Below, in pieces: positions 566 to 2,686 of a stretch of 11,511 nucleotides of DNA. This stretch comes from an uncultured Prevotella sp. (lineage in GTDB: Bacteria > Bacteroidota > Bacteroidia > Bacteroidales > Bacteroidaceae). The DNA is taken from NCBI GenBank assembly GCA_934230685.1, contig CAKQFF010000045.1:1-11511 (forward strand). The letters are read 5' to 3'. The notes under the pieces were generated by a model. It saw only the letters and a program-made list of their open reading frames with translations, was not told the DNA's origin and made no database searches. How positions within the stretch are numbered: position 1 is the stretch's first letter; each line of letters opens with the position of its first letter. A program made the translations under genes and the position numbers.

Positions 566-946
566 TTACTTCTTTGCCTTAGGACGCTTAGCACCATACT
601 TAGAACGGCGCTGTGTACGGTTGGCAACACCTGCTGTATCGAGTGTACCGCGAACGATGTGGTAACGAACACCTGGAAGGTCCTTTACACGACCACCGCG
701 AACAAGCACGATTGAGTGCTCCTGAAGGTTGTGACCCTCTCCCGGGATGTAGGAGTTAACTTCCTTAGAGTTTGTCAAACGTACACGGGCAACCTTACGC
801 ATTGCCGAGTTAGGCTTCTTAGGTGTTGTAGTGTAAACACGAACGCAAACACCACGACGCTGAGGACATGAATCCAAAGCCGGTGACTTGCTCTTGTCTA
901 CGAGCACCTTTCTGCCTTTTCTTACCAACTGTGAAATTGTAGGCAT
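566..946 (-). CDS. rpsL: 30S ribosomal protein S12
   Basis: This complete 126-residue protein begins [13 protein letters not shown] and carries the invariant S12 blocks CPQRRGVC (27-34), [10 protein letters not shown] (39-48), [10 protein letters not shown] (69-78) and [13 protein letters not shown] (84-96). S12 sits at the decoding centre of the small subunit and governs tRNA selection accuracy. Lys43 and Lys88 (E. coli numbering including Met, identical here), the main sites of streptomycin-resistance substitutions, are both the wild-type lysine, so the allele looks streptomycin-sensitive. Asp89, which RimO methylthiolates in E. coli, is also present. It is the first gene of the str operon here, followed by rpsG, with a -7 box about 85 nt upstream. 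The C-terminus ends in a basic KRPKAKK tail, as usual for the family. Confidence 0.99.
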
Positions 947-996
947 AATTCTAATTTTTAATTTATATATTTTATTTTTATTTTTTCGTTTTCAGC

Positions 997-1019
997 AACA
1001 GCCTGTGTAACAAGCCGTT
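997..1019 (-). promoter_or_regulatory. Hairpin at the 5' end of the rpsL leader RNA
   Basis: The minus-strand RNA reads AACGGCUUG-UUACA-CAGGCUGUU. All nine positions pair, two of them G-U, so the helix is stronger as RNA of this strand than as a DNA palindrome. It would start only a few nucleotides after the start site predicted from the -7 box at 1029-1036, with the rest of the leader (947-996) A/U-rich and probably unpaired. Either a 5' stability element or a ribosomal-protein leader is possible; I do not recognise a named family. Confidence 0.45.
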
Positions 1020-1028
1020 TTCGGGGTG

Positions 1029-1036
1029 CAAAGGTA
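1029..1036 (-). promoter_or_regulatory. Bacteroidetes -7 box (TACCTTTG) of the rpsL-rpsG operon
   Basis: The minus strand carries TACCTTTG, a full match to the Bacteroidetes sigma-ABfr -7 consensus TAnnTTTG, followed by GCA. It lies 82 nt before the rpsL ATG, giving a predicted start near 1022-1024 and a leader of about 76 nt. A TTTG -33 element at the usual 19-21 nt spacing is not evident; that stretch is A/T-rich. Confidence 0.7.
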
Positions 1037-1069
1037 CGAACTTTTTCTGAAAATACCTAATATATAAAA

Positions 1070-1085
1070 TGACAATATCTTGTCA
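1070..1085. repeat. 16-bp palindrome TGACAA-tatc-TTGTCA upstream of the rpsL promoter
   Basis: Perfect 6-bp arms (1070-1075 and 1080-1085) surround a 4-bp centre. The site lies about 34 bp upstream of the -7 box, i.e. just beyond the expected -33 position, where a regulator of a strong promoter could bind. No matching regulator can be named from the sequence. Confidence 0.4.
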
Positions 1086-1182
1086 GAACCCACAATTTTC
1101 ATAAAAACAGGATATTTTAACAGTTGTTTGCACAATAATCTCATCTTATTGACATTCAACGGCTGTTTTACCGTCCCCTACC

Positions 1183-1199: not shown

Positions 1200-1259
1200 T
1201 AGAACATAAAACCAAGGGCCAACAACGTATTTGAACCAGTACACCAACACGACTCATCC

Positions 1260-1512
1260 CGAACGGATCCCGAAGGAATCCCGTATTCCGACCTTTCATT
1301 CTTCGATAGGTCTTCGATAGGTTCTCGATAGATTCTCGATCGGTCTTCGATCGGTCTTCGATCGTTCTCCGTTCATCCTCCGTTCATCCTTCGATAAACT
1401 AACGGAGAACAATCGAAGAACGAACGGAGAACTATCGAAGAACTATCGAAGGCAGAACGAAGGATGAACGAAGGGCGAACGAATAAAGAACAAGAGACTA
1501 TCGAAGAAATTA
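1260..1512. repeat. Tandem array of 23 degenerate 11-bp CG-phased units, inverted at its centre
   Basis: A CG dinucleotide occurs at 1260 + 11k for 21 of 23 consecutive positions; only 1293 (CT) and 1491 (CA) fail. In the left half the units read CGATAGGTTCT, CGATCGGTCTT and CGTTCATCCTC. From about 1400 they switch to the reverse-complement form (CGAAGAACTAT, CGAAGGATGAA, CGGAGAACAAT) without losing the 11-bp phase. The whole block is therefore also an imperfect palindrome with its axis near 1387; the best arms are the 10-bp perfect GTTCTCCGTT (1364-1373) and AACGGAGAAC (1401-1410). The core 1304-1512 is clear; the first four units (1260-1303) are more diverged. 11 is not a multiple of 3 and TAG recurs in each frame, so it is not coding. 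It begins 20 bp beyond the stop of the AraC-type gene. Confidence 0.9.
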
Positions 1513-1531: not shown

Positions 1532-2686
1532 TCATTCCTTCATACCCTTTTTCCACAACGTGGGCGAAAGTCCCACATTTTGCGAGAAAACTTTCGAGAA
1601 ATATGATGGCGAGGAGAATCCTACTTGATGGGCAATGTCCTCGAGCTTACGCTCGGGATTCTCTGTCATCAGACGTTTTGCCTCCTCTACACGAAGACTC
1701 GACACCCATGCGCTGAAGTTCATGCCATACCGCTCATTAATATAATAGGAAAGATAGTTCTTATTGGTGTCGAGGGCTGCGGCAAGTTCATCAATAGTAA
1801 ACTGTGTGCCCAGGAAATTTTTACTCTCTACCCAAGCCGTAATTTTCTGATAAAGATTATTCGCAGCAGTCTCCGCCCCTCCCGACGCTTGTGCGGCATA
1901 GGCTTTATCGTGACAGTCATTACCGACACATATATTTTTCTCCATCGAGGAGTCCGACTTATATGATTGGGCAATGTGGCCATACTGTGGTGCAAAGTTA
2001 AGAAAATTCATTGCAATATACATATTAAGGCTCACCATATATATTTGGAAAAGCCAGTTAACATATACATCAGTAAACATAGTAATCAATGCGAACACCC
2101 ATGATATTATAAGAAAAAGTATGCTTCGACTGGTCCAGCGTACAAAACGATGCATATCAGACGAGAAATAGTTGTCGAGCATATCGCGGTTGACCTTATA
2201 CTGTTTGCGGAAGAGAAAAGCAAGCTCGGCAACGTTCTCAATCATCACGACTATCGCCAACAACAGGCACACCCGGCTCAAATGTTCAAAACGCGGGAGC
2301 AATGGCATAAGCACAAGAATAGCCGCCAGGCACATGCGCGAGGCATCCTTCATCACGCGCTTTCGGGTAAGGAAACTATTGTTGAGAATATGGCACATCG
2401 AGTAGCACAACATCAGTTCCTCGAAATAAAAGAGGATGATGTCGATGCACGCAATGGCATAATTAAATTTGTCCCAATTGCCGTTAGTGAGCACACACCA
2501 GGCTGCAAGATTAAGAGCCATCGACCCGAAGGCGAGCGTGAGCATAAGTTTCGACTGCCTGTAGGGGCGGAATATGGCATCCTTGGGTGTCGTGGTGAAA
2601 TGCAGCACCATACAGAGCGTAAAATAAGATACGGCTACGCACTTGATAAGAGTTTCAAAATAACTTTGCAGTTGTAAAGTATCCAT
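1532..2686 (-). CDS. Membrane-bound AraC-family transcriptional regulator
   Basis: The protein has 384 residues. Its N-terminal half is hydrophobic, with about seven possible membrane segments near 11-31, 46-66, 75-98, 116-131, 136-159, 186-206 and 210-230. A hydrophilic linker (about 232-275) leads to a C-terminal AraC-type DNA-binding domain (about 277-384). This has a first helix-turn-helix around FTIDELAAALDTNKNYLSYY (296-315) and a second around IAHQVGFSSPSYFSKVFSQN (351-370) followed by GLSPTLWKK. Such fusions are common in Bacteroidetes and are thought to sense a signal at the membrane while binding DNA directly. The linker holds a CVGNDCH motif (Cys253, Cys258, His259) that might bind metal or be redox-active; this is speculative. 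It is monocistronic, with a -7 box 36 nt upstream. No target is identifiable; the gene is divergent from tRNA-Arg and dsbD. I recognise the family, not the specific regulator. Confidence 0.9.
   Translation of the reverse strand: MDTLQLQSYFETLIKCVAVSYFTLCMVLHFTTTPKDAIFRPYRQSKLMLTLAFGSMALNLAAWCVLTNGNWDKFNYAIACIDIILFYFEELMLCYSMCHILNNSFLTRKRVMKDASRMCLAAILVLMPLLPRFEHLSRVCLLLAIVVMIENVAELAFLFRKQYKVNRDMLDNYFSSDMHRFVRWTSRSILFLIISWVFALITMFTDVYVNWLFQIYMVSLNMYIAMNFLNFAPQYGHIAQSYKSDSSMEKNICVGNDCHDKAYAAQASGGAETAANNLYQKITAWVESKNFLGTQFTIDELAAALDTNKNYLSYYINERYGMNFSAWVSSLRVEEAKRLMTENPERKLEDIAHQVGFSSPSYFSKVFSQNVGLSPTLWKKGMKE

Follow-up and report, generated by a model that had tools for sequence, protein, structure and literature searches.

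An 11-bp CG lattice beside rpsL in an uncultured Prevotella belongs to a wider class of intergenic arrays in which the period outlasts the sequence

Porphyromonas gingivalis and Prevotella belong to the same order, and it is in the former that the closest known kind of element is found. This kind is the minisatellite-MITE BrickBuilt, which together with PgRS/464 makes up MITE-like elements of P. gingivalis; like the arrays described here, it is intergenic, multi-copy and built as a spacerless tandem minisatellite with a variable number of units and predicted long stem-loops, and 22-nt repeats are also mentioned for strain W83 (PMC4596501). BrickBuilt differs from our arrays in unit length, sequence and ends: it has 23- or 41-nt units, one sequence family per element, a leader and a tail, and IS5-like terminal repeats (PMC4596501), whereas our arrays consist of units of 11n bp (11, 22 or 44) with many unrelated sequences. 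Heptamer repeats (TAACTGA), present in up to 43 copies between the genes of Beggiatoaceae, cyanobacteria and some Bacteroidetes, are likewise short intergenic direct repeats, but they have a 7-bp period and one fixed sequence (PMC4679880). Intergenic tandem repeats of 6–11-bp units are over-represented in some prokaryotes, among them Methanococcus voltae, M. aeolicus and Natrialba magadii; they are similarly short in unit, although neither an 11n period nor Prevotella is given in the accessible part of that survey (PMC4060949). Finally, parC centromeres bound by the ribbon-helix-helix protein ParR carry repeats of about 10–11 bp, of which R1 needs at least two of 11 bp (PMC9426499), and our array also consists of tandem direct repeats of that size; parC, however, is a plasmid site upstream of parM, whereas here there are many chromosomal copies, and neither parM nor parR adjoins the array. 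The heptamer repeats (PMC4679880) and the ParR/parC arrays (PMC9426499) are analogues. A search of the open-licence literature at the level of titles and abstracts returned no report of 11n-bp intergenic arrays in Prevotella.

The array in question is non-coding and has rpsL on one side and an AraC-type gene on the other within the window, that is, the whole stretch of 11,511 bp that was analysed. The genes at the window start are those we take to be rpsG and rpsL, rpsG being next on the rpsL strand; a DsbD-type gene is also among the neighbours. The features needed below are as follows.

566..946, minus strand: rpsL (ribosomal protein S12), relatives up to 98% identical
947..1120, minus strand: leader and promoter region of rpsL, which aligns with relatives and stops short of the array
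1250..1512, no strand assigned: array of 11-bp units, with CG on 1260 + 11k in 21 of 23 units
1250..1292, plus strand: outer sub-array with units like ATCCCGAAGGA on the 11-bp lattice of the array (TRF period 11 at 1256–1283, ATCCCG..., and sequence)
1293..1391, plus strand: left arm with units CGATAGGTCTT, CGATCGGTCTT and CGTTCATCCTT
1392..1512, minus strand: right arm, the left-arm unit family reverse-complemented (CGAAGAACTAT, CGAAGGATGAA), with a dyad axis near 1395
1532..2686, minus strand: AraC-type regulator gene (PF12833 and PF00165), its 3' end about 20 bp from the array

The original prediction described a CG lattice with an exact 11-bp period and proposed comparing it with randomised sequence. 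This comparison was made, and the lattice is real: C occupies the position 1260 + 11k in all 23 units and is followed by G in all but two of them (CT at 1293, CA at 1491), whereas the highest count among 20,000 first-order Markov sequences modelled on the region was 11 CG, and the best 11-bp phase in any 253-bp piece of the rest of the window had 7. Compared with itself, the array matches by 0.655 at lag 11, 0.574 at lag 22 and 0.519 at lag 33, against 0.16–0.41 at the remaining lags from 2 to 39, and TRF returned rows of 11, 22 and 33 bp. The units follow one another directly, with no spacers, and share a consensus of about CGWTMRTYCTY once those of the right arm are reverse-complemented, so conservation goes beyond CG alone. 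Since the reverse-complemented right arm fits the left-arm consensus, the array is an inverted dyad built from a single 11-bp unit. It contains seven inverted pairs with arms of 42–73 nt and 70–76% complementarity, and the phase of the lattice runs unbroken through the orientation switch.

Compared with the described systems, the array shares the intergenic location of BrickBuilt but has a unit of 11 bp and not of 23 nt, and it also lacks the 7-bp unit of the heptamer repeats, its self-match at lag 7 being 0.40. BrickBuilt-like terminal inverted repeats (GAGACCTTTGCA) gave 8 matches with 2–3 mismatches in the window, where 10.6 were expected; none of them falls between 1039 and 2227, so that no terminal-repeat pair flanks the array. 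A CRISPR array was rejected, as repeats with unique spacers are absent and the 11-bp units are contiguous. The earlier statement that no named element can be recognised agrees with Rfam, which assigned no family to the array at gathering score; at this score Rfam 15 found only tRNAs in the window, and the sub-threshold matches at 950–1600 were mostly microRNA hairpin models. Plasmid and phage matches to the array did not exceed the chance level, although the BLAST low-complexity filter may mask true ones, and the viral contigs contained a single exact 20-mer match, located within an ORF with no array there.

The AraC-type protein has 128 homologues at E ≤ 0.001, but the best non-identical one is only 66% identical, while relatives of the nearby DsbD-type protein reach 97–99% (a 97% match is annotated as 'uncultured Prevotella sp.'). 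To judge by these sequence identities, such a difference suggests that the AraC-type gene is variable or was recently acquired. Scans of genome contigs revealed no close relative of this protein, one scan returning nothing and another 80 loci at 25–41% identity.

Across rpsG–rpsL, the closest genome that we found, G526, shares 82.6% identity with the window. None of the 30 rpsL loci of relatives carries an 11-bp array (one of them, L119, includes only 52 bp upstream). Among the 29 loci other than L119, five (L115, L117, L127, L129 and L132) have 22-bp arrays, unrelated in sequence, no more than 1.5 kb upstream of rpsL.

A search for 11-bp arrays in other genomes, also proposed originally, was productive, since related genomes do carry intergenic ones. 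The DNA of the array, used as a query against 150 genomes of the genus of G526, gave matches with E < 0.001 in six of them (G718, G604, G699, G659, G665 and G670). Stretches from G718, G604, G699, G659, G665 and G675 contain intergenic arrays of 11-bp units, with 3 of the 20 having none at the threshold used, and the unit CGTTCATCCTT/CGAAGGATGAA of our array recurs in the arrays of G718, G604, G699 and G659. Rfam recognised no family in the relatives' arrays at gathering score. Period-11 arrays numbered 25 in 400 kb of G699, 2 in 193 kb of G718 and 1 in 400 kb of G526 (of the 20 G526 stretches, two were placed deliberately, at rpsL and at a weak match, and the others at round coordinates), whereas a single shuffled version of each of these sets contained no such array.

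The spectrum of intergenic periods extends this picture from 11 bp to its multiples. In G526, 14 of 19 arrays have a period of 11n bp (22 in eight, 44 in five and 11 in one), in G718 6 of 22, and in G699 20 of 52 have a period of 11 bp. Arrays with a 7-bp period are about as numerous in the G699 stretches (L215–L234; 19 of 52), a period that they share with the heptamer repeats (PMC4679880). Twenty further genomes, each sampled over 40 kb at round coordinates on contigs chosen for length, yielded 38 arrays at 11n among 66 intergenic ones (35 at 22 bp, two at 44 and one at 11). Since arrays inside one genome are often related, the counting unit should be the genome and not the array; 16 of the 20 genomes have at least one intergenic 11n array. 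Many of the 22-bp arrays match only by about 60–75% between units and are still in step. Hence the array in the window belongs to a wider class in which the period outlasts the sequence.

The same periods emerge when no array detection is involved. Counting a segment whenever at least three 7-mers recur at a given lag, we found that, of the 252 intergenic segments of the 20 genomes, 30 show lag 22 and 21 show lag 44, while every remaining lag from 8 to 48 was present in at most 7; the period is sharply 22 bp, lags 21 and 23 being found in 7 and 4 segments, respectively. At 60 rpsL and prmC loci the two lags occurred in 7 and 5 of 104 segments, compared with 1 and 0 of 221 at 69 non-Bacteroidota control loci and 0 of 32 for both at 11 other Bacteroidota loci. 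Not all genomes follow a pure 11n rule: G526 shows lags 10, 20 and 30 in 13, 8 and 8 of 112 segments, and G699 shows lag 14 in 19 of 141. By eye, 10- and 12-bp steps seemingly alternate inside the 22-bp unit of the TTTTAC arrays of G526 (L235–L254). The 20 genomes contain 38 arrays of the 11n type per 99 kb of intergenic DNA, so about 4 would be expected in the 10.0 kb of non-coding DNA of six genomes related at the level of the order; none was seen there, and the trait may thus be limited to the family.

Copies of single elements show how such arrays vary. One element was compared in five copies from G718 and G604; these differ by whole 11-bp units, with 2, 3, 4, 4 and 6 of them by eye between common ends CAATC...GATTG (with one substitution in L184), which supports the earlier suggestion of growth in 11-bp steps. 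The claim that no indel breaks the phase is true of the array in the window but not of the class: 11 of the 21 period-11 arrays of G699 are free of indels under lenient TRF settings. Among 10 regions inspected by eye, the phase shift over the orientation switch was 0 in the window, L185 and L223 and +2 in L221, L222, L228 and L190; in the TACC/GGTA type of array, CC and GG stay on one residue through the switch.

Multiple copies per genome were seen for related elements in G718 and in G672, whose 2.7-Mb genome gave 282 first-look candidates for an element with a 22-bp lattice. Forty copies were scored (the query included), with 89–100% identity; the element (L297–L326) is conserved over about 230 bp, near-palindromic and intergenic. 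Its 30 placed copies have 15 convergent, 13 co-directional and 2 divergent pairs of neighbours according to a simple ORF caller, which in 13 cases also predicted an ORF that covers the copy. In a pooled set, 47 of 53 arrays could be placed, 16 between convergent, 23 between co-directional and 8 between divergent genes. In G699, 9 of the 14 arrays for which both flanks are known were nearer a 3' end, against a fraction of 0.545 for random positions, and 11 of its 25 arrays could not be placed. The arrays of the class adjoin many different genes; they are intergenic and have no tie to promoters.

How might such a class arise and persist? We tentatively favour, only slightly ahead of the next explanation, the view that Prevotella and its family carry a dispersed intergenic minisatellite, which would grow by 11n-bp duplication and be kept in helical register as a platform of double-stranded DNA. 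Slippage or unequal exchange would lengthen the arrays, and their 11n lattice would persist because the double-stranded DNA would be read or packed one helical turn at a time. The likely reader, and with it a function, might be sought in a nucleoid or boundary protein that binds cooperatively and acts between transcription units. It counts against this proposal that most genomes have no array sequence in common, so there is no single recognition motif. The array in the window would then be a spacer between the AraC-type gene and the rpsL promoter region and the operator of neither. In favour of this proposal we count the Markov null, the unit common to several genomes, the 11n spectrum, the recurrence at lags 22 and 44 compared with the control loci, the period-11 arrays of G699, the variation in unit number, the G672 copies and the intergenic placement; against it, the indels in G699, the excess of lag-22 pairs with related spacers (see below), lags 10, 20 and 30 in G526 and lag 14 in G699, and the six order-level genomes devoid of 11n arrays. 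DNA of about 11 bp per turn is plausible under negative supercoiling. The idea that all CG steps lie on one face is true only at 11.0 bp per turn; at 10.5, successive units rotate by 17 degrees, adding up to 377 over 22 steps. Nor did we find support for a curvature element, which had been offered as a possible reason for the lattice and which we rejected, as the predicted curvature of the array is ordinary: by end-to-end distance, predicted from wedge values, 21% of shuffles are at least as curved.

An explanation of nearly the same, likewise tentative, standing is that we are dealing with a non-adaptive minisatellite, which duplicates in steps of 11 or 22 bp (for example, through slippage or through nicks staggered by one or two turns) and is simply tolerated between genes, the lattice being a memory of duplication. 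Pairs recurring at lag 22 speak for it: 134 of them have related spacers, where other lags have about 8 such pairs and the control has none, while those with unrelated spacers number 48 against 23, the same ratio as in control DNA (10 against 5.2). Contrary to the earlier claim that spacing is maintained despite sequence divergence, there is thus no sign of spacing kept without homology; units appear to be duplicated whole and then to diverge. Near-perfect tandem duplications also peak locally at 22 bp (7, against 0–4 at each of lags 13–21 and none at lags 23–37), copies vary in unit number and the placement bias in the pooled set is weak. On the other hand, we know of no enzyme step of 11 or 22 bp, and among short near-perfect duplications outside G699 there is no peak at 11 bp (41 at 10 bp, 19 at 11 and 9 at 12), such a peak (59) being restricted to G699. 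It is also hard to reconcile with tolerated duplication alone that so many poorly matched 22-bp arrays stay in step and that the G672 copies favour convergent neighbours. Overall, a pure duplication mechanism that advances in helical turns has nearly the same probability as selection for geometry.

REP/BIME elements with their RAYT transposases are present in many intergenic copies as single palindromes. An RNA or DNA hairpin of this kind, working either at the ends of transcripts or by forming a cruciform, was also considered, but we find it improbable. For the copy in the window a hairpin is possible, given a dyad z of 4.3 and MFE fold z values from -3.0 to -3.65, and dyad z exceeds 3 in 16 of 27 arrays, which were chosen and not random. 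As with REP/BIME, there are many intergenic copies, and those of G672 prefer convergent gene ends. However, while many 22-bp arrays are dyads, others are not: 11 of the 27 have no clear dyad, and L237, L240, L256, L269, L175 and L179 have none (z < 2). In the consensus fold of the 30 G672 copies, 887 of 900 cells pair, against a mean of 886.1 with one side shuffled (174 of 500 shuffles reach 887); 18 of the 30 pairs are invariant, and one facing C/G position pairs in 11 of the 30 copies. A covarying hairpin was accordingly rejected, both on the arrays without a dyad and on the lack of covariation above shuffles in G672. No terminator-like site was found at 940–1640. REP/BIME elements also lack the helical-period lattice seen here, and PF01797, which we take to be the Y1 transposase of the RAYT kind, has no match in 7 of 13 array-bearing genomes, including G672, G663 and G526. 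It matches in the other 6, as well as in 3 of 4 genomes whose sampled 40 kb lacks intergenic 11n arrays; in these relatives its presence does not follow that of the arrays.

AraC proteins can use direct repeats. A cooperative operator for the AraC-type regulator or for rpsL, although suggested by this ability and by the location of the array between the two genes, was nevertheless rejected on position and on the comparison with relatives and must be deemed highly improbable, because the array lies downstream of the AraC-type gene and past the part of the rpsL leader that aligns with relatives (blastn alignments to the loci of the 30 relatives stop at points from 950 to 1120), none of these loci has an 11-bp array, arrays sit beside many other genes, and the AraC protein has only 2 matches (35% and 30% identical) at E ≤ 1e-50 in 398 genomes of the genus of G526.

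Returning to the minisatellite held in helical register, intergenic repeats are usually defined by their sequence, whereas the property common to these unrelated families and many species is the period. Either a duplication process steps by helical turns, or, in this major group of gut bacteria, geometry has been selected to suit a protein that packs DNA. One may go further and speculate, though we consider it rather unlikely, that genomes of the Prevotella family keep chromosome-wide intergenic lattices of 11, 22 and 44 bp, helix-phased and largely independent of sequence, which some as yet unrecognised nucleoprotein system would read or pack, and that their sequences turn over fast between species while the register of one or two turns stays.

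Some further observations were made along the way. A more distant genome has an array with a 9-bp period (L384, 4074–4206), whose second half is inverted. In L269, an FopS sRNA (Rfam RF04319) at 14747–14814 lies about 80 bp from a 22-bp array. Finally, a second family of elements, with inverted arms of 11-bp units of the CACTACATAAA type, occurs in L176 (8185–8331), L179 (7307–7450) and L181 (10128–10260), in each case about 200 bp from the CG arrays.
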